Assembly (NCBI GenBank): GCA_015146655.1
Contig: VKHL01000002.1
Coordinates: 1 to 64,000 of the forward strand
Direction of reading: 5' to 3'
Source: Ochromonas danica
Lineage: Eukaryota; Sar; Chrysophyceae; Chromulinales; Chromulinaceae
DNA: 64,000 nucleotides
Of the stretch, positions 20,888 to 64,000 are shown piece by piece. The stretch's first letter is position 1; each line of letters begins with the position of its first letter. The position numbers and the translations under genes were made by a program. Under the pieces are notes generated by a model that was not told the origin of the DNA, ran no database searches, and worked only from the letters and a program-made list of their open reading frames with translations.

Positions 20888-21226
20888 ATAGAGAAATAGG
20901 ACAGAAAAGAAGTAAGATGAACTTTACGAAAAAAACTCAATCAAAACACAACACCACCACACAAGACGATAAAAGTTGTGATGAACAACATCATCTGCTC
21001 ATCACTTGACAAACACGATGAACAGCGGTGCAACATACAGCAGCAACACGCACACACGACAGCAGACTGGGAGAGATGATGAGAGAGATCATTCCCACGC
21101 AACCTGCAATTATTGATGTGTGAAGAGTGTTTTTCAGTGTGCACACGCAATACAATAATATTGCACAAAACCTGGTCACTCATGTCCAAACAAAAAGGAC
21201 ATGCTAATAAAGAGTATATTTTGATC
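20888..21226. promoter_or_regulatory. Divergent promoter region, GBA2 / XRN-like genes
   Basis: The two genes start head to head here. On the plus strand the exonuclease reading frame is open back to ATGs at 21116 and 21182, so part of this stretch may be coding. No clear TATA box was seen. Confidence 0.5.
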
Positions 21227-23898
21227 ATGATCAGGACTCTTCACTTTCTACTCTTAGCTTGTTTACTCATTATAAGTCAGTCAGGATTACCACGTTTTAC
21301 AAAGTTAACAAAGTCTATGTTTCCTAAAGCATGGAGTAAAATCCCTACTACGCAATCTCTACAATTTGATCATGTCTGCTTTGATATGAATCAACTTCTT
21401 CACACACGTCCCATCAAAGACCTTCCTAGTACTGGTAGTGATAATCATACTGCTGCTGCTGCTGCTAATAGACAGCAAAAACATGATGCAATCTCATTAA
21501 TGATTCTCTATAAGACATTAGATGAATTCTTTAAAGTCATACAACCATGTAAATCTGTTATTTTTGCATTTGATGGACCTGCACCTTTTGCAAAGATACA
21601 AACACAACGTATAAGACGATCAGATAACAATGAACATGGTTATATCTCCCCTGGAACAGACTTTATGAATGATATTGAAGATGCAATTGTCTGTTATATT
21701 ATGCAACGCTTGAAAAGACCAAGTTTTCAAAATATTACCTATTTCATCTCTGGTGCAACATTACCAGGTGAAGGAGAAATTAAGATTGTAAGATGGATTA
21801 ATAGTCATTTGTCATCACCAGCAAATAGAAATGAATCAGTTGTACTTTGTGGATTAGATGCAGATATGATTCTACAAGCAATGAGTATTAATGTTGTTTC
21901 CAATGTCTATGTCCTACAACATCAATGCAATCAACGTAATATGTGTAATATTTCTCGTGTCTTACAAGACTTAACCTCTAATTTAGATTCTCAAGACAAT
22001 AGAATAGAGCAACGAAAAGTTGTTCTTGACTATGTGTTACTCTTTCTATTGAATGGTTGTGATTATCTACCTAAACTTTGTGGTGTCTCTCGACGAGCAA
22101 TCTTAGCTGCTTATCGAGTAGCCTTAGCCGAGTTACCACTATCAACGAAATCAATTCTAGATTTAGATAATGAGAGCTTTCATTTCTCAACATTGTATGA
22201 GATTTTAAGAAAATTGCGTGAAGATCGTCATCATCTTTCTTGGGAACGTCTCAAATCACGTTACGTTAGTGATAAGACCTTGTTGACAAATTTGCTGCAA
22301 AAGAAAAATGTCGCCATGGTTTGGAATGACATACCGACAAATGATGTCAAAGAAGGATGGAAAGCTGAGTTATTCATTGTTGACAATGTTACTTCTGCTA
22401 CTGATGATGATCTATCTGAATCGATTGAAACTCATATTGGTACTCGTGTATTAGCAGCATTTAAAACGGTGCAAGGGTATGGAAACAAGAAGTTGGCTCA
22501 TCGAGCTATTTCACAGGTTGCTCTCAGGCATTTGTTTCCCAAGCACTTCGCTCAACAACTTGCCAGTAGCCAAGTGGAGAATGATAGAATAGTAATATCA
22601 GACGAGTCAGTTCTTAGTGATGTCTATTTCAAGGATGAATGGTTAGATGAAGGCGCAGAAGCAGACAGTAATAGTGTGTTAGAGTGTGCAGATGAAGAAG
22701 ATGATGATGAGGCCAGTGATGACGAAGAGGACGAAGATAATAGGCCTGATTTAGAAGTGTCTGTAGATCTATCTGAAAGTAGCATGGAAGAAAGTGTGGT
22801 GCAGTATCTGCGAGGTCTGTTATGGGTTGTGAATCTCTTCTCAACGGGTGAATGTTCTGACTATGGGTACAGCTTCCAAGGAAATACTCCAGTTTCCCCA
22901 GCAAATATCCTAGATTTCTTTGATAAGCAGTTAATGGAATACTGTTTGCAACATCCTGAAATTCCGACAGGAATGTCCACATCAGAATTGTTGAGTTTAC
23001 CTCAGGTACAGACCTATTTCAGAACGAAAATTCATGTCCCACGAAGCAACAGCCCGTAAGTGATTCTTCATCCTTTTTATCAACAATTCCTCTTATATCG
23101 CTTGTTCTTTGTTAATTGCGTGTAGACCTCTCTCTGCAGAGTCGACTTGTGCCTGTTTATTTCCTGTAAGTGCTGGCGCTCGTCATGTTCCTGAGCATTT
23201 GCGAGACTTGTGGAAATGGGTCAACAAGGAGTATTTTCATAATCACCATCGTCGTCGTCATCATTATGATACACTTGTAGATTGCTTACATCAGGTAGAC
23301 TTCTGTTTATTGTCTTGGTTTTGAATAGTAGTATGACTTAACTTTGTTCGATTTCTCTCAGTATCACAAAAACCAAGCTACACAAGTACAACCAAGTCAA
23401 AAAGAGCAATCTGTCTCCACTTGCAACTCTGATTTGAGCCGAGCTGGAAAGAAGAAGAGAAGTGATACCGAGAAGAAGCCTTGGCGATCAGAGAAGCAGA
23501 CACTTTCAGCCAACAGATTAGATCTAGGGGTTAGGTCGCCTGTTAATTTGAGTGTTGATTTGCACTCGCTAGAAGGCGATCAAAGTACCCCTTTCGATCA
23601 ATCGAAAAGGGAGTACAAAAATGTTGTGTCTAAAGACACGCATCTTTGGAGTGTACTGGCTGCTAAGGAGCATTTCTACTCCAAGCATTACGCGCGCAGT
23701 TATAAATCGCATCCATTGCGTCTACCTCTTAAACTGCCATTCAACTCTCCAAGGTATGTATATTCACATCGAAATTAGTTTTGTTTGCATTAGAAACATT
23801 GCATTGATCCTCTTGTATTGTTTGTTTCTATGTCCATAAACAGTTTCCTTCCTCATCGGTATGGATACTATAGGGCAGTTGACCACGATAGTAAATAG
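21227..23898 (+). CDS. XRN-family 5'-3' exonuclease with N-terminal hydrophobic leader
   Basis: Exons 21227-23055, 23126-23294, 23362-23753 and 23844-23898 join in frame (814 residues if the ATG at 21227 is used). The XRN nuclease motifs are present: CFDMNQLLH, FAFDGPAP, LPGEGEIKI, GLDADMIL, NGCDYLP. These enzymes degrade 5'-monophosphate RNA or DNA one nucleotide at a time. Normal XRN1/XRN2 start at once with a VPKFFRW-like segment. Here the equivalent GLPRFTKL is preceded by a strongly hydrophobic stretch (LHFLLLACLLIIS) that looks like a signal peptide or anchor. The frame is also open to ATGs at 21182 and 21116, which would make it a signal anchor. An acidic Glu/Asp-rich linker and a C-terminal region with a basic segment follow. 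The protein is much shorter than XRN1 (about 1500-1700). Possible sites are the ER, a periplastid space or the plastid; undecided. Confidence 0.8.
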
Positions 23899-24540
23899 AT
23901 ATAGAATGATAGCTTAGTAGTTGCTTGAGTTGAGTGTAAGGATAGCAGTGGAATAATGCAAACTTCGGGTTGTGTGAGAGAAGGCAACGTACATACAGCA
24001 ACTTGGCTGCAGACTTAGTGTACTGTCCACTGAGTGGCCTCTCCCACGTATTATCATGATTAGATTGACTCAATGATTGTTAACTACTTTGAAACTCGTT
24101 TCTTGCGTCATATTGTTTGACTAAAAATGCCGTTAAAGTGTTTTTCACCTTGTTCTACTGCAAAAAAACTTCATTGACGAGACTCTTTACATCGAATGTT
24201 TTGTCTGTGTATAACATAATAGTCAGTTAATACATTACGTAGCTTACGATCTAATATTCCATCTCCAGATCTGATATGATGATCATTTGTTTCTGCTGTT
24301 GGCACAGGCTGCTAGACTACTTTAAGTTCACATGTTATGTTAACATTTTTCACTTCATATCAACGAAATTGGCAACGATGTAGTAGTTGTCTTCGACTAC
24401 TGACTAGTGCCATCATCCTTCACGTCAACAAAATTGGTAGTAATGTAGTCGTTTTAGATTAGCGCCAACATACAATCAACCACTTTCGTTCGCTATTGTT
24501 TGGATCTTTTTCTGTTGAATATTCCATCTCCAGATCTGAT
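23899..24540. other. Upstream region of the lysozyme cluster, with repeat remnants
   Basis: No gene was seen. A 30-base sequence ending CCAGATCTGATATGATGAT occurs at about 24259-24289 and again at 24516-24547, where its ATGATG is the start of lysozyme copy 1. About 24355-24398 and 24420-24457 are diverged direct copies (CAACGAAATTGGCAACGATG / CAACAAAATTGGTAGTAATG). The stretch near 24222 (CAGTTAATACATTACGTAG) resembles the 5' flank of copy 2 near 26185. This looks like the debris of an earlier duplicated lysozyme promoter. Confidence 0.5.
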
Positions 24541-25666
24541 ATGATGATGTTTCTGACGGTTCTCTCTGCCCTATTTTTATTCTCCTGTACTGATGCTGCC
24601 TTTTCTAACAGCACTGTAAGTTCTATTTGTTCCTATTCTGCAAGTTGTACCATTTTATATGCATAAATATATATAATTTGAAGGAGCTTGTGTGAGCATC
24701 TCCTCTAGGTGCTACTCTTCCAGAGTAGTCACTTCTGGATTATGTTCTGGCTCCTCTGACATTAAATGCTGTCCTCAGGCAACTGCAACCTATGGCGTGG
24801 ATATCAGCAGCGCTCTCTCTTCCACAGTGGCGAGTTGTTTCGCCTCCGCAGGCCTCACTTACATCATTCCCCGTGGATATCGTTCCTCTGGCAGCGTGGA
24901 CACGAATGTTTGTACTTCTATTACGACTGCAGCTAGTGCTGGTATCAAGACGAGGGATGTCTACATGTTTCCATGTTAGTCTTATATTGCTATATTTCAT
25001 TTCGCTGTTTTTCACTTTCCCTTCCACGTAATATAGGCCCAACTTGCTCGAAAACTGCTGCGGCTCAGATGAGTGAGTTAGTCACCTATCTTAACTCTAA
25101 CTGCAAGTCTACTTGGTCTGGAAGAGTGTGGCTTGATATTGAAGGCACTTCTTATTGGTCTAGCTCTACCACCACCAATCAAAACTGGTACAAGGTATGT
25201 CCTTCATATTTGGTTTATCTTTGTCAAAATCAACGGTGTAATCGCTCTGTGGTTTAATGGTGTAAGGCTTTGGTGGACTCTTGCGACACTTATGGAGTGA
25301 CATGCGGCGTCTACTCATCCTCTTCTCAATGGTCTGCTCTCTTCGGCTCCACTTCTTTTACGTATGGAAGCAGTCTGTCCTTGTGGTAAGTTCAGAAATT
25401 TGTCTTGTTATTTGTGGGAAGCTGGAACCTAATGTATGATTTGGGTAGGTATGCTCATTATGACAACAACCCTTCATTCTCTGACTTCTCGAGCTTCGGC
25501 GGTTGGTCCAGTCCTCATGCTAAACAGTATGCTGGAGATACTACTCAGTGCAAGTAAGTGACTCACTCTTAGAGATTTATCTGTCCGTTTAGTTACTAGC
25601 ACCTTATTATTTCTTGCAATGTATAGTTTGGGTGTGGATAAGAACTATGCTTCCGGAACCTTCTAA
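24541..25666 (+). CDS. GH25 lysozyme copy 1, Cys-rich module lost
   Basis: Read straight through, the coding frame stops after about 40 residues inside a decayed Cys-rich module. However, six exons can be joined without a break: 24541-24615, 24779-24974, 25037-25194, 25267-25385, 25449-25553 and 25627-25666 (230 residues). The first intron, 163 nt, starts GTAAGT and ends CCTCAG. It corresponds to coding sequence in copies 2 and 3. The product would be a signal peptide ([12 protein letters not shown] core), then directly the glycoside hydrolase 25 domain: YGVDIS, IPRGY, DVYMFPC, VWLDIEG with the catalytic Asp/Glu pair, and [15 protein letters not shown]25 enzymes cleave the peptidoglycan sugar backbone. 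Either this is a pseudogene or exon sequence has become intron; both fit. Only transcripts can decide. Confidence 0.6.
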
Positions 25667-25988
25667 CTTTGATCATCAACCTAGCCCACGTATTTTTCTT
25701 CCATACAAGTTTCTCAAAATGAGTATGTTTTCAAACAAACAACCTTTGTGAATCATGGCATTTGACTCCTTTTAGGACCGCTATTATCCGCTTTATAATG
25801 GACATTGTTGTTTCTTACTAAATAAGAATAGACATATTGTTTTCCAGTTGGTATTACCACTTTTTTTTTCATTCATTTATCTATCTTTATATGTATGTTA
25901 GCAGCAGACGGCTCACTTTTATATCATAAAGAGGGCAAGAAATAAACAATGACTCCATTAGATTTAAAACAGGTATATCTAATGTTAT
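24785..25988 (+). repeat. Tandem duplication block, left copy
   Basis: This segment is nearly identical to 26629-27834 (offset about 1845). It covers the catalytic exons, their introns and roughly 320 bases of 3' flank. Differences are a handful of substitutions, except for one intron (25386-25448) that is clearly diverged between the copies. Confidence 0.9.
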
Positions 25989-26269: not shown

Positions 26270-27512
26270 ATGATGATGTTCCTGGCCATTCTCTCGGTCC
26301 TGTTATTATTCTCTGGTGCTGATGCTGCCTTTTCTAACAGCACCGTCAGCTCTGCTTGCTCCTATTCCGCGAGCTGTACTGTTTCTGGATATGAAGGAGC
26401 CTGTGTGAGCATCTCTTCCGGATGCTGTTCTTCCGGAGTAGTCACCTCTGGATTATGTTCTGGCTCTTCTGACATTAAGTGCTGCACCCAGTCAACTTGT
26501 TCCACACCTGCGGGAAGTGGAACATGTATGCAAACTTCTCTGTGCTCGAGCAAGGGAGGATCATCTTACTCTGGTTACTGCTCTGGGCCAAGTGATTTAC
26601 AATGTTGTGTTGTGGGCTCAAGTGGATCTGCAACCTATGGTGTGGATATCAGCAGCGCTCTCTCTTCCACAGTGGCGAGTTGTTTCGCCTCCGCAGGCCT
26701 CACTTACATCATTCCCCGTGGATATCGTTCCTCTGGCAGCGTGGACACGAATGTTTGTACTTCTATTACGACTGCAGCTAGTGCTGGTATCAAGACGAGG
26801 GATGTCTACATGTTTCCATGTTAGTCTTATATTGCTATATTTCATTTCGCTGTTTTTCACTTTCCCTTCCACGTAATATAGGCCCAACTTGCTCGAAAAC
26901 TGCTGCGGCTCAGATGAGTGAGTTAGTCACCTATCTTAACTCTAACTGCAAGTCTACTTGGTCTGGAAGAGTGTGGCTTGATATTGAAGGCACTTCTTAT
27001 TGGTCTAGCTCTACCACCACCAATCAAAACTGGTACAAGGTATGTCCTTCATATTTGGTTTATCTTTGTCAAAATCAACGGTGTAATCGCTCTGTGGTTT
27101 AATGGTGTAAGGCTTTGGTGGACTCTTGCAGCACTTATGGAGTGACATGCGGTGTCTACTCATCCTCTTCTCAATGGTCTGCTCTCTTCGGCTCCACTTC
27201 TTTTACGTATGGAAGCAGCTTGCCTTTGTGGTAAGATGACCAAATATATCTTGTCGTTCGTGGAAAACTGGAACCTAATGTATGATATGAATAGGTATGC
27301 TCATTATGACAACAACCCTTCATTCTCTGACTTCTCGAGCTTCGGCGGTTGGTCCAGTCCTCATGCTAAACAGTATGCTGGAGATACTACTCAGTGCAAG
27401 TAAGTGACTCACTCTTAGAGATTTATCTGTCCGTTTAGTTACTAGCACCTTATTATTTCTTGCAATGTATAGTTTGGGTGTGGATAAGAACTATGCTTCC
27501 GGAACCTTCTAA
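26270..27512 (+). CDS. GH25 lysozyme copy 2, one Cys-rich module
   Basis: Exons 26270-26819, 26882-27039, 27112-27230, 27295-27399 and 27473-27512 join in frame to 323 residues. Three Met codons in a row open a signal peptide ([16 protein letters not shown]). One module of about 85 residues follows, rich in Cys and Ser, built from two related halves that each end in a CC pair (IKCC, LQCC) with G.C......C spacing. Similar Gly-Cys modules precede lysozymes and other wall hydrolases in fungi and protists and are thought to bind cell-wall polymers; that role is inferred here. The GH25 domain has YGVDIS, PRGY, VWLDIEG and [10 protein letters not shown], matching the family's catalytic Asp/Glu. Expected location: phagosome or outside the cell. 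Expected job: digesting bacterial peptidoglycan. Intron positions and phases are the same as in copies 1 and 3. Confidence 0.88.
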
Positions 27513-28053: not shown

Positions 28054-29562
28054 ATGATGCTTTTGACTATTCTTTCGACTTTCTTACTTTTCTCTTCTTC
28101 TCAAGCTCTTGCTTCTAATAGCACTTTAAGTAGCATTTGTTCTTCTTCGGATACATGCAGTGTTTCTGGATATGAAGGAGCTTGTGTGAGCATCTCTTCT
28201 GGATGCTGCTCTTCCGGAGTGGTAACTTCTGGATTGTGTGCGGGTTCCTCTGACATTAAGTGCTGTACCCAGTCTTCTTGTAATACACCTGCGGGAAGTG
28301 GAACATGTATGCAAACTTCTCTGTGCTCGAGCAAGGGTGGGTCATCTTACTCTGGTTACTGCTCTGGACCAAGTGATGTACAATGCTGTGTCAGATCAAA
28401 TGCGGTTTGTTCTTATTCTGATACTTGCAGTGTTTCTGGGTATGAAGGAACTTGTGTGAGCATCTCCTCTGGATGCTGCTCTTCCGGAGTAGTCACCTCT
28501 GGATTATGTCCTGGCTCCTCTGACATTAAATGCTGCACCCAGCCTTCTTGTTCCACACCTGCGGGAAGTGGAACATGTATGCAAACTTCTCTTTGCTCCA
28601 GTCAAGGCGGGTCATCCTACTCTGGTTACTGCACTGGACCAAGTGATTTACAATGCTGTGTTAAGGGCTCAAGTGGATCAACCGCCTATGGTGTGGACAT
28701 CAGCGACACTCTCTCTTACTCAACCGCAAGTTGCTTTGTTTCATCTGGTTTGTCCTTTGTCATTCCTCGTGGATATTGTTCTTACGGTGCCGTTGACTCC
28801 AGCGTTTGCACTTCGCTCAACAATGCTGCCAATGCTGGTATCAAGACCAGAGACGTCTATATGTTTCCTTGTAAGTGCTGTTATTTTATTGATGTTTAAT
28901 AATATTTTCTGTATTGTCTAATCTCTGTTCGTCCTAGGCCCCACTTGTTCCAAGAGTGCTGACACCCAAATGAGTGAACTCGTCTCTTATCTCAACGCCA
29001 ACTGCAAGTCTGCTTGGTCTGGAAGAGTATGGCTTGATATTGAAGGTACTCAGTATTGGTATAGTTCTACCACCACCAATCAAAACTGGTACAAGGTAAG
29101 TTGCTATTGCAACCACAAGTGGGTTGTTTAAATGCGTAACGGATGGTATCGTGTGATTGTTTTCTTTTTCTAGGCTTTGGTTGACTCTTGCAGCACTTAC
29201 GGAGTGAGATGTGGTGTCTACTCCTCTTACTACCAATGGTCTGACATCTTTGGCACCACTTACTTTTCCTATGGCAGCAACCTGCCTTTGTGGTAAGTTC
29301 AGAAATTTGTCTTGTTATTTGTGGGAAGCTGGAACCTAATGTGTGATTTGGGTAGGTATGCTCATTATGACAACAACCCTTCATTCTCTGACTTCTCGAG
29401 CTTCGGCGGTTGGTCCAGTCCTCATGTCAAACAGTACGCTGGAGATACATATCAGTGCAGGTATGAAACGATTGCTTTTCTTCTTTAGCAATGAAGCTGA
29501 GCATTATTGTGTGTTTGAATAGCATGGGTGTGGACAAGAACTATGCTCCATATGGCTTCTAA
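28054..29562 (+). CDS. GH25 lysozyme copy 3, doubled Cys-rich module
   Basis: Exons 28054-28870, 28938-29095, 29174-29292, 29356-29460 and 29523-29562 join in frame to 412 residues. After a signal peptide ([12 protein letters not shown] core) come two near-identical Cys-rich modules in tandem, each about 85 residues, starting [13 protein letters not shown] and ending in a CC pair. The GH25 domain follows with [27 protein letters not shown] and [10 protein letters not shown]. It is the most diverged of the three in catalytic exons 1-3, and its introns 1, 2 and 4 differ from the other copies. Its third intron and most of the next exon are almost identical to copy 1. The doubled module probably increases binding to the cell-wall substrate. 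This copy may be the parent form from which shorter versions arose. Confidence 0.88.
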
Positions 29563-30021: not shown

Positions 30022-31689
30022 CTATGTATGAAACCTAACAATAGGAGCAGAATTGTGGAGACCAGACTCTTGAGGAGGACGCCAATCGGTCTCTTGATTC
30101 AAAGGTGGAAGTCCTAAAGCCTGCCTGAGGGCAGCAGACATGGACACACCTTCAAAACGTGACACATCCATTTCTTCTTCATCTTCTTCATCTTCTTCTT
30201 CATCTTCATCATCATCATCTTCATCGTCTTCTTCTTCTTCGTAGTTACCTTCATCGCCTGCATTTCTGTAAGATTGATCTGTGGTAGCTGAGGTAATGTG
30301 TCCACTTTGATTGTTGTTTATCTGTCGATGTGTCGTCTCATCATCTGAAATGGAGAGTTGCTTCGACTTGATAATTGGAGATGAATTATCTAATCCTGGA
30401 CGACTTGGAGGCTTCCAATCAGTGGACATTGCCAAATCTGAGGGTTGTAAACCAAGCAAACGCATGAGATCAGGTGACATGGCGGTATGAAGGAGGTCAC
30501 GACCCTCTTCTTCTTCTTCCTCTTCCTCTTCTTCGTCATCATCTTCTTCGTCATCGTCATCTTCTTGATTGTTAATGCCTGAATTGACAGGATTCTGATG
30601 TTCAACATTGACTTGAGATAAGAAAGAAGAGCTCTTGTTGACAGAATAATCAAGACCATCGTGCAGACCCATGCCCAGCAATCCTTGCAGGCTATTCTTC
30701 ATTGCTGCATCAAACAAACCACTCTCTCCAGTATCAGAACTACTAGTATGACTATAGTTCTTATAATCATCATTTGCCAGTTGAGGAGGTCGACGAGGAT
30801 GAGTTACGATGGGTGTAGAATTGTTTAAGCCATAAGTAGCTGGAGGCTGCCAATCTGTTTTCACCATCTCTTCCTCTTTTACCTCTAGACCTAACAAGCG
30901 CTTTAAGTTAGCAGACATAGCAATATCACGAAGAGAGGATTGATCTTCACTAAAATCTTCGTCATCATCCTCATCGTCATCATCATCGTCATCATCATCG
31001 TCGGCTTCATGATTGTAACTACTATAGCTTAGAGGTAGTTGATTCACTCTATTTCTCTCTTCTTCCACCCCTTTGTTACTATACTGGATGAGAGAACTAT
31101 TTGCATTTGTACTAGCAGCAGCAGTAGTATAGCTATTCTTGGGGAAGATGTTGATTTTATTGTTGTTGTTGTTGTTGTCTAGTCGGTCTTGTGTAAGTTT
31201 GGTTGAGTTTTGCAGACCAGGTCTCTGTGGAGGTGTCCAATCAGTCATATTAATATCATCATACTTTCTCCTCCATTGGCTTTTATCTTCACCAAAATAA
31301 GTTGCTGCAATATTATAAGATAAGTTCTCTGGTATGATGTCAACAATAGCAACGGGTTCCTTGTTCATGAGCAAAGCCACTGACTTTTCCAAATCAATCA
31401 ATAAGGCATCATAGTCTTGATCACTCAGATCACTATCTTCAATATTCTTATCTTCTTCAAGTAGTGTACCATAATCATTACCATAATGACTATCCCATTC
31501 TTTTTGGTATGGTTTGAGAGCACCTCGAACTTCTCGTATAATATTACCTTTATTGGAATTATTAGGTTGTCGAACTGTTTTGCGTAAGCGATCATAAGTG
31601 ATAGCTAAAGGCATTTTATTCTCTTCTAAGGTACTTTGATGTTCTGATAGCTGCCATGGCAGTGAAAGGTCGTTGTACATCGTCATCAT
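30022..31689 (-). CDS. Acidic protein with repeated AMS-LLGL-DWxPP units, unrecognised
   Basis: Single exon, 555 residues, ATG at 31689. The protein alternates long Asp/Glu runs with a repeated unit. The unit is an A(M)S..L..LLGL helix-like segment (AMSANLKRLLGL, AMKNSLQGLLGM, AMSPDLMRLLGL, SMSAALRQALGL), followed about ten residues later by a DWxPP...GL.NS.PI box. Four DWxPP boxes exist (DWTPP, DWQPP, DWKPP, DWRPP); only the first lacks the LLGL segment. Such regularly spaced short motifs in disordered acidic linkers suggest multivalent docking to one partner. I know of no family with this arrangement. The N-terminal 150 residues are mixed-charge and more ordered. There is no signal peptide or membrane segment. 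The 5' flank is shared with no close divergent gene. Confidence 0.7.
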   Translation of the reverse strand: MMTMYNDLSLPWQLSEHQSTLEENKMPLAITYDRLRKTVRQPNNSNKGNIIREVRGALKPYQKEWDSHYGNDYGTLLEEDKNIEDSDLSDQDYDALLIDLEKSVALLMNKEPVAIVDIIPENLSYNIAATYFGEDKSQWRRKYDDINMTDWTPPQRPGLQNSTKLTQDRLDNNNNNNKINIFPKNSYTTAAASTNANSSLIQYSNKGVEEERNRVNQLPLSYSSYNHEADDDDDDDDDDEDDDEDFSEDQSSLRDIAMSANLKRLLGLEVKEEEMVKTDWQPPATYGLNNSTPIVTHPRRPPQLANDDYKNYSHTSSSDTGESGLFDAAMKNSLQGLLGMGLHDGLDYSVNKSSSFLSQVNVEHQNPVNSGINNQEDDDDEEDDDEEEEEEEEEEGRDLLHTAMSPDLMRLLGLQPSDLAMSTDWKPPSRPGLDNSSPIIKSKQLSISDDETTHRQINNNQSGHITSATTDQSYRNAGDEGNYEEEEDDEDDDDEDEEEDEEDEEEMDVSRFEGVSMSAALRQALGLPPLNQETDWRPPQESGLHNSAPIVRFHT

Positions 31690-31946
31690 ATTGTTCTGTC
31701 CGTTGCCATATCACAGCAAGCAGCGGATCCCATCCCAACAAAGCAGTTTTTCGCCCAACACTAGAACACGAACATTCATTCTGATTCTAACAGAATAATT
31801 AAATGTAAACGAGTTTGCTTCATTTCTTTGGTGATCATATTCTATAGTTTTATTCCAAAAAAAACTAACAAAAGAGATCTATCATGATCAAACGAAAATA
31901 TCAAGCGAAAATATTTACAGATTATCATATATTATAGACAAGGTTT

Positions 31947-61357: not shown

Positions 61358-64000
61358 ATGATTTACAGTCTTTCTTTGCTATTCAAGCTGTGCTTGATAG
61401 CATTAGTATCAATGGAGTATTATGGATACAAACATCAGTCAATGATGAGGATGAAATGTTATACTTCATTGAAGATGGGATACGGCATTTCCGGCGAAGA
61501 GACTGAGTTGTTCAATAGCTTGCAGTCGAAGCTAAATGCACGAGTCACATTAGAACCAACTCCAATCTCTAATGATATTGGTGTTCGAGTCATTGCGCCT
61601 ATCGAACGAATAGAGCAGGCTGTGGAAAACCAAGCGGTGCAATCTCTATCCATTCCTCAAGAGGAGACCGCGTCACAATCTTTTGCAAGCATTCAGATTC
61701 CTTCTTCAGCTTCTGACTTTCCTTCACTCTCTTTGCCAACCTTGAGCTTGGGAGGAAATGGTGCAACAATCGCAATCGCTGGTGTGGTCACAGCGGTCGG
61801 TGGTATCATTTGGAAACAGATACAAACCAGAAAGCGCGAAGAAGAGCGAAGGCTAGCAGAAGAGAAGAGGCGTGCTGAAGAAGCAGAGGCTAAGCGCAAA
61901 GCTGAGGAGGAAGCAAAGGCTCTCGCCAAAAGAAAGGCTGAGGAGGAAGCCAAGCGTAAGGCCGAAGAAGAAGCAAAGGCTCTCGCCAAGCGAAAGGCCG
62001 AGGAGGAAGCCAAACGTAAGGCCGAGGAAGAAGCAAAGGCTCTCGCCAAGCGAAAGGCCGAGGAGGAAGCCAAGCGTAAGGCCGAGGAGGAAGCAAAGGC
62101 TCTCGCCAAGCGCAAGGCCGAGGAGGAAGCCAAGCGTAAGGCCGAGGAAGAAGCAAAGGCTCTCGCCAAGCGCAAGGCTGAAGAAGAAGAAGCTAAACGC
62201 AAGGCTGAAGAGGAAGCCAAGGCTCTCGCCAAGCGCAAAGCTGAAGAAGAGGCTAAACGCAAGGCTGAAGAGGAAGCCAAGGCTCTCGCCAAGCGCAAGG
62301 CTGAGGAGGAAGCCAAGCGTAAGGCCGAGGAAGAAGCCAAGCGCAAGGCTGAAGAAGAAGAAGCTAAACGCAAGGCTGAGGAGGAAGCCAAGCGCAAGGC
62401 TGAGGAGGAAGAAGCTAAACGCAAGGCTGAGGAGGAAGCCAAGCGCAAGGCTGAGGAAGAAGCTAAGCGCAAGGCTGAGGAAGAAGCTAAGCGCAAGGCT
62501 GAAGAAGAGGCCAAGCGCAAGGCTGAAGAAGAAGCCAAGGCTCTCGCCAAGCGCAAGGCCGAGGAAGAAGAAGCCAAGCGCAAGGCTGAAGAAGAAGCCA
62601 AGGCTCTCGCCAAGCGAAAGGCTGAGGAGGAAGCCAAGCGTAAGGCCGAGGAAGAAGCCAAGCGCAAGGCTGAAGAAGAAGCTAAGCGCAAGGCTGAGGA
62701 AGAAGAAGCCAAGCGCAAGGCTGAAGAAGAAGCCAAGGCTCTCGCCAAGCGTAAGGCCGAGGAAGAAGCTAAGCGCAAGGCTGAAGAAGAAGCCAAGGCT
62801 CTCGCCAAGCGCAAGGCTGAGGAGGAAGCCAAGCGCAAGGCCGAGGAAGAAGAAGCCAAGCGTAAGGCCGAAGAGGAAGCTAAACATAAGGCTGAAGAAG
62901 AGGCCAAGCGTAAGGCCGAGGAAGAGGCTGCACGAAAGGCTGAAGAAGAGGCCAAGCGTAAGGCCGAGGAAGAGGCTGCACGAAAGGCTGAAGAAGAGGC
63001 CAAGCTTAAAGTTGATGAACGAAAGATGTCAGCGAAGGAAGTGAAACCCAAAAAGCCGCCTGTTCAAGATTCGAAGAAGTCATCCAAGAAAAGCGCCACA
63101 GCAAGCATTGATGTTAATCAACCATCTCAACTTGACATCGCCATCGAAGCAACAATCCGAGAGATGGAAAATGCTGCTGAGGAAAACATTCCCAGTGGCA
63201 AAGATGATTTCCAGAGTGGTAAAGTATTGAATCAAATAGTGACAGGGTTTTCGAAGGTTCCACTGGAGATGTAAGCCACTGTCATGAGTGTTTTTATTTC
63301 ATTGGTAAATGGCTTGTTTGATAGATTAAGGAGAGTTGCTGATAAGCATGGCGATGGATTGTCTATAGCTCAGGGTCTGAGTCCCAAGGACAGCCTTGAA
63401 ATCCACATGCAAAAAGCATTGATAGCAACTTGGACTGCAAGTGGTCGTAACTGGAACAAATTTAACTCTTTATATGCTCAAGATATTGAACCTGTGGTAA
63501 GTGACACTTTTCGATATATACTGTCACCAATGCTTCACGTTAAGCATTTCTGTCAATATCTTCGCAGGCTGATGAAAATGGCAAATATATGGGTGCCGCC
63601 ATTGCTGCAACTGAAGATATAAGTGATGCTAAGTATGTCTTCATGTAGACTCTCAACAATTTCTTACTGATCCCTTGATTGCTTACAGGTTGAAGGAGCT
63701 TATCAAGAAGTATGGCTCTTCTTCGGCTGTTCCAAAGAACAAGAAGAAAGACAGCAAGGAAGACGATCAAACCGATGCCTTCGACTCAAAAGATCGTATT
63801 AAGTATGTATCCAATCTGTTGGACGTCTTGAGAACCAAGTTCCAGAACGATTACAAACCGGTTAGTGATATTGTTGCCAAGGAGGCCAAAGAAATCAAAA
63901 GTATGAAAACAAAGGGATTCGGAGCGGCGCTAAAGAAGGCAGCGTCATTGAAGTCATCAGCCGGAGGGGCAGATGCCACTGATTCTGCAAGTGTCATAGT
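61358..64000 (+). CDS. Membrane-anchored Lys/Ala/Glu repeat protein (3' partial)
   Basis: Exons 61358-63270, 63325-63496, 63568-63632 and 63689-beyond 64000 join in frame; at least 820 residues, with no stop before the window ends. The N-terminus (MIYSLSLLFKLCLIALVS) looks like a signal peptide. A second hydrophobic helix (ATIAIAGVVTAVGGIIW) at about residues 145-165 would anchor it. Then about 380 residues consist of KRKAEEEA and KALA units, expected to form a long, straight, charged single helix like TolA or ER/K rods. The globular C-terminal part contains SLEIHMQKALIATWTASGRNWNKF and KDRIKYVSNLLDVLRTKF, which I do not recognise. A spacer between two membranes or a membrane-to-cytoskeleton link is a reasonable guess. 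TolA resemblance is compositional, not evidence of homology. Confidence 0.65.
61893..63002 (+). repeat. Coding minisatellite, 60-nt higher-order unit
   Basis: The basic unit is 24 nt (KRKAEEEA); with the 12-nt KALA spacer it forms a 60-nt unit that is nearly perfect over about 61,920-62,160 and then becomes irregular. Copies differ mainly at silent sites (GAG/GAA, GCC/GCT, CGC/CGT). The antisense strand carries a chance open frame of over 400 codons (61693-63051). Confidence 0.9.

Follow-up and report, generated by a model that had tools for sequence, protein, structure and literature searches.

Intronization is in itself a known process, and the intronization of exonic sequence was reportedly treated by Irimia et al. 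in 2008. The nearest parallels are as follows. A published model (Catania & Lynch 2008, PMC2586383) lets intronization follow a premature stop and mentions latent 5' splice sites. The gene described below, copy 1 of a lysozyme array, resembles the model in that a stop-containing exonic stretch lies near the 5' end of the gene and flanking sites restore the frame, but the model favours 3n lengths, while the candidate intron of copy 1 has 163 nt (147 nt in copy 2) and its splicing is predicted only. In the passage of snake venom metalloproteinases from PII to PI (PMC4963849), an accessory disintegrin domain was likewise lost by intronization within a multigene family; there, however, splice sites are lost and an entire exon merges with the introns on both of its sides, whereas copy 1 would turn only a portion of an exon into an intron. 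In Cryptococcus intronization was rare, a study of 28,256 introns counting five cases (PMC2740785), and in Schizosaccharomyces (PMC3629103) 59 putative intronizations with changed splice signals comprised one supported by transcripts, 50 disproved and eight without data; only 1 of the 51 transcript-tested cases was therefore confirmed, and the authors attribute most putative cases to annotation errors. Both studies concern, as here, intron boundaries gained inside an exonic region, but their accepted cases, judged rare, have cDNA or transcript support, whereas the copy 1 candidate is predicted from sequence. Because the retained reading of copy 1 is closed, the fission yeast base rate may not carry over to it. 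Among the titles and abstract openings of the literature matches listed on intronization and lysozymes, no report of the copy 1 case was found.

The window, by which we mean the whole stretch of 64,000 nt analysed, is eukaryotic, with short GT-AG introns in its genes. Among the genes are those of a proteasomal-ATPase-like AAA protein, an XRN exonuclease and a GH116 beta-glucosidase, and one with chloroplast cyclophilin CYP38 as its best PDB match, the N-terminus of which resembles, by eye, a bipartite plastid leader. We guess the source to be an alga with a complex plastid, perhaps a phagotrophic stramenopile. The ORF of the XRN 5'-3' exonuclease-like protein (21083-23056) has near its start a signal-peptide-like stretch, MIRTLHFLLLACLLIISQSG, which to the eye is odd for the XRN family. 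Elsewhere in the window, the neighbouring ORFs 112-840 and 1648-2769 have clearly similar starts (QAHFDC...LVDGAR.KW.IPLLLDA, by eye) and no Pfam match, and the minus-strand ORF 30025-31710 carries repeated motifs, MRLLGL...TDWKPPSRPGLDNS, together with Asp/Glu runs and weak Pfam matches below the cut-off. A long tandem array of 24-nt and larger units (61892-63009), probably encoding Lys/Arg/Glu/Ala-rich repeats, lies inside a 703-codon ORF that also lacks a Pfam match.

Three GH25 lysozyme genes stand head to tail in a tandem array (Table 1). Against Pfam PF01183, for which the curated cut-off is 27 bits, all three copies score above it, copy 1 as its spliced product (40.7 bits, E=4e-10), copy 2 with 41.5 and copy 3 with 42.7 bits. 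Copy 1 contains GVDIS and WLDIE, candidates for the catalytic Asp and Asp-x-Glu, which we take to be the catalytic motifs of GH25. The Cys-rich units, with 8 and 6 Cys in copy 2, gave no Pfam family at E up to 0.001 (copy 2) or 0.1 (copies 1 and 3); judged from the common pattern C..GxCxGxSDxxCC, we read them as mutually related. A 270-nt tandem repeat in copy 3 (28136-28661, 1.9 copies, 89% matches) doubles its Cys-rich module. At the other end of the array, a 31-nt exact direct repeat (24253-24283 and 24518-24548) spans the start of copy 1, ATGATGAT, and is perhaps a relic of a 5' duplication. A search with the 206-aa GH25 part of copy 2 returned 2 pattern stretches in viral_contigs and 32 in genome_contigs (bacteria, archaea), with no relative confirmed in either set, and whole copy 2 had no match among PDB chains up to E=1. 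Four lysozyme genes were reported from a transcriptome of the chrysophyte Ochromonas (PMC5310065), a report that establishes no link to the present genome.

Table 1. Positions in the window of the lysozyme genes and of the features of copy 1
Feature	Position	Strand	Basis or remark
Copy 1, lysozyme gene	24541-25666	+	translation, gene model
Copy 1 exon 1, signal-peptide-like N-terminus, 25 residues	24541-24615	+	translation; signal peptide by eye
Candidate intron, 163 nt, GTAAGT...CTGAC...CCTCAG; corresponds to the broken first Cys-rich unit	24616-24778	+	site scores
TAA, first in-frame stop upon retention of the segment (codon 42)	24664-24666	+	inside AT-rich stretch
End of rival acceptor AAG, which would give a 68-nt intron	24683	+	out of phase (phase 1 needed); score 3.0
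Junction of in-frame 132-nt deletion	24779-24784	+	6 nt vs 138 nt in copy 2
Copy 1 GH25 exons	24779-24974, 25037-25194, 25267-25385, 25449-25553, 25627-25666	+	gene model
Tract nearly identical to copy 2	24783-25284	+	1/502 nt differs
Unshared tract interrupting the identity with copy 2	25285-25448	+	7/101 exon nt differ
Tract identical to copy 2 (exons, intron, 3' flank)	25449-25988	+	0/540 nt differ
Copy 2, lysozyme gene, intact; two Cys-rich units and GH25	26270-27512	+	
Copy 3, lysozyme gene, intact; four Cys-rich units and GH25	28054-29562	+	

According to the first-pass annotation, the stretch that codes for the Cys-rich module in copies 2 and 3 has an in-frame stop in copy 1. Our models agree on both points: the predicted reading frames of copies 2 and 3 are open from end to end, the homologous stretch included, and copy 1 has the TAA at 24664. 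On alignment, the AT-rich stretch holding this stop gives the Cys-rich unit of copy 1 a net gain of 16 nt over copy 2. As 163 nt is not divisible by three, retention of the segment shifts the frame, besides reaching the stop at codon 42. The second half of the module, described as lost in a decayed exon, is indeed missing from copy 1, but through a deletion that keeps the frame, which lends decay no support; gone are 132 nt that in copy 2 follow the CAG codon and precede GH25. The proposed splice could be reproduced in detail: the donor GTAAGT stands at 24616, where copy 2 has GTCAGC, the acceptor CCTCAG ends at 24778, and their excision leaves a phase 0/0 junction that fuses the signal-like peptide to GH25 in a frame open to the stop at 25666 (the 231 codons of the annotation include the stop, which makes 230 residues). 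The sequence facts of copy 1 are confirmed, and the interpretation that had been placed on them is partly supported.

Exon 1 of copy 1 differs from that of copy 2 by 6 synonymous and 6 nonsynonymous changes. Downstream of the stop, a remnant ORF starting at 24677 runs on into GH25 without a stop; initiation of GH25 at an internal start codon was considered and rejected, no ATG being found in the GH25 frame within this ORF. A 40-nt mini-intron (24644-24683) would put the frame right while sparing most of the unit, but with a donor score of -1.5 it was rejected as well. With respect to the features by which intronization is recognised, the segment is exonic in the paralogues according to the predicted models, its excision keeps the frame and it contains a premature stop. 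Its length exceeds the 45-102 nt of the introns modelled in the window, though usual size is not strictly defining; moreover, this range comes from a small sample chosen by eye, with longer, weaker candidates dropped, and the comparison depends on that choice.

Splice sites were scored with matrices built from these 19 window introns, modelled by eye and predicted from the sequence, which comprise 7 of 30 candidate rows (donor-acceptor pairs up to 200 nt apart) and 12 introns read from the sequence. The 23 dropped rows, several of them longer than 102 nt (up to 189 nt), were set aside as weak or as second choices beside a better pair. Eight of the 19 training introns come from the three lysozyme copies, and four more lysozyme introns were omitted as near-duplicates. 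Both candidate sites, which flank the stop and the frameshift, score near the median of the set: donor 24616 reaches 8.4 bits, a value matched or exceeded by 11 of the 19 in leave-one-out scoring, and acceptor 24778 reaches 3.4, matched or exceeded by 10 of the 19. A branch-like CTGAC precedes the acceptor by 20 nt. Motifs of this kind occur within the final 45 nt of 13 of the 19, and the letters CTGAC are also present in the other lysozyme copies, as part of their coding sequence. On the + strand between 24001 and 29700, 12 donors, 24616 among them, score at least as high, and each of the remaining 11 belongs to a modelled lysozyme intron (7 in the training set, 4 their counterparts in a neighbouring copy); only one of the 12 modelled lysozyme donors, 27231, scores below 24616. 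Across 23 long ORFs (30,759 nt) we counted 6 donors this strong, a rarity in coding sequence, 291 equally good acceptors and 4 in-phase pairs of this strength lying 40-250 nt apart, so that it is the donor that carries the information.

At this threshold no pair occurs in the first exons of copies 2 and 3, both of them intact; when thresholds are lowered to 6.5 and 2.7, two in-phase pairs appear in copy 2 and one in copy 3. Copy 1 itself offers 27 rescuing GT-AG pairs, 15 of which were listed; among them 24616/24778 has the best summed score and is alone in having both sites above even lax thresholds. Dinucleotide shuffles of the segment produced a rescue at least as good on both site scores in 39 of 3000 cases, at lower-quartile thresholds in 185 of 3000 and at lax thresholds in 925 of 3000. 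As a departure from chance, the in-phase rescue is unusual, not overwhelming.

The donor had been regarded as new in copy 1, a view that copy 3 does not bear out. At this site copy 1 reads ACT GTAAGT, copy 2 ACC GTCAGC and copy 3 ACT TTAAGT; TAAGT and the preceding T are common to copies 1 and 3, so that the copy 1 donor and the corresponding coding sequence of copy 3 are a single base apart. GTAAGT may therefore be a nearly ancestral latent site, and newness relative to copy 2 would come without polarity. As for the acceptor, the intact copies already read its CAG as a codon. Where the copy 1 site scores 3.4, the three homologous sites score -3.6, -2.0 and -0.3, an improvement that 5-10% of random mutants with an equal number of changes attain and that is within drift. 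Since both sites lie on codon borders of the old frame, their being in phase may be partly inherited.

The intact GH25 domain had been taken as a sign of a rescued gene, a conclusion it does not sustain, given that it equals or nearly equals copy 2 even in non-coding sequence, 3' flank included, so that its integrity is no proof of a selected rescue. Upstream, 23 of 116 nt ahead of the insertion and 15 of 103 nt behind it differ between copies 1 and 2, whereas from 24783 to 25988 the two are nearly identical, with one interruption (Table 1). The intron within the interrupting tract (25386-25448) agrees with copy 3 in 62 of 63 positions and with copy 2 in 50 of 64. The simplest reading of the near-identity tracts would be recent gene conversion, in either direction; with copy 2 as the source, the GH25 half of copy 1 would have been overwritten and would be silent about selection.

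Private changes in the GH25 exons number 7 in copy 1 (3 nonsynonymous), 1 in copy 2 (synonymous) and 120 in copy 3 (54 nonsynonymous). As the nonsynonymous share of copy 1 does not exceed that of copy 3, GH25 gives no clear sign of relaxation. The unshared exon tract accounts for 6 of the 7 private changes of copy 1 (3 nonsynonymous), against 1 in copy 2, and shows Pro to Ser and Ser to Asp at sites that are the same in copies 2 and 3; we considered this tract as relaxed and rejected the idea, the nonsynonymous share of copy 3 being the same. Several of the changes are close neighbours, which makes conversion from an unseen fourth copy possible.

The remaining Cys-rich unit of copy 1 does show signs of relaxed constraint past the insertion, although on small counts. 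Over 33 aligned codons, copy 1 has 6 strictly private changes, 4 of them nonsynonymous, while the other three module copies together have 10, with 1 nonsynonymous (Fisher p=0.036, small counts); among those of copy 1 are Cys to Tyr and two Gly to Arg, at sites that are uniform in the other three. A looser majority rule gives 10 private changes with 4 nonsynonymous in copy 1 and 24 with 3 nonsynonymous in the others. Between copies 1 and 2, dN/dS across the same 33 codons is still 0.09, so that any relaxation would be recent.

Considering these results together, the explanation we prefer is that the broken unit is a candidate young intron, whose removal would yield a module-free secreted GH25 protein; we assign it a probability of about 0.45. 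Copy 1 would then be a mosaic gene within a tandem array encoding secreted GH25 lysozymes, a gene in which one of two Cys-rich units may have been lost in frame and the other broken by an AT-rich insertion carrying the stop, this order of events being our reconstruction. The broken unit lies between a good donor, possibly latent in the old coding sequence, and a CAG codon, upstream of which the tract appears to have moved towards the intron consensus. If copy 1 is transcribed, the donor is probably functional, and the spliceosome would probably use it and join it to 24778 in at least part of the transcripts; the product would be a secreted GH25 enzyme, presumably active, without the Cys-rich part.

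The same locus can be read as an ordinary pseudogene, with a broken Cys-rich region, no useful splicing and a GH25 half overwritten from copy 2, and we see roughly even odds between candidate intronization and such a pseudogene maintained by conversion. Pseudogenes are common in tandem arrays, and the stop and frameshift of the first exon fit this alternative, which remains a serious if tentative contender, as do the identity to copy 2 of GH25 and the 3' flank even in non-coding sequence, the Cys to Tyr and two Gly to Arg changes of the unit, and the Pro to Ser and Ser to Asp changes of the unshared exon tract. On the other hand, it leaves to chance a strong donor with an in-phase acceptor, a combination that the shuffles equalled in 39 of 3000 cases, and it must accommodate a signal-peptide region that remains open and a private nonsynonymous share in GH25 (3/7) that is not above that of copy 3 (54/120).

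Even with a functional donor, copy 1 could be silent although spliced, if the donor were used mainly with the acceptors at 24683, 24827 or 24851 and the frameshifted transcripts were degraded. The last two, both out of phase with the donor, outscore 24778 (6.8 and 4.4), and the AAG at 24683 lies in an AT-rich context and would give an intron of usual length; AAG acceptors are, however, rare (1 of the 19 modelled introns), and the CTGAC motif is placed 20 nt before 24778, even if such a motif occurs in only 13 of the 19, so that we regard this outcome as unlikely. Still more improbable, in our estimate, is that the gene model differs, the broken region being explained by an assembly problem or by an exon or promoter further upstream. 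The exact 31-nt duplicate of the start region at 24253-24283 speaks for it, as it suggests that the 5' end has been rearranged, but the GH25 frame has no upstream ATG within the remnant ORF and the insertion is, by eye, unlike a simple sequencing slip.

In conclusion, gene conversion would explain how the remainder of a broken copy stays intact, and the intact catalytic domain of a tandem copy is not proof of selection. The candidate young intron may be extended into a fuller account, which we hold to be doubtful: an intron now being born, in which a latent donor would have become useful once a stop hit the last Cys-rich unit, exchange would have kept the enzyme domain, and the array would have gained a unit-free enzyme besides its four-unit and two-unit forms. 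Confirmed cases of intronization are few, and here the exon form survives next door and the disrupting change is visible. If the splice were true and confirmed by RNA, the order of events from latent site to stop to excision would become testable at one locus.
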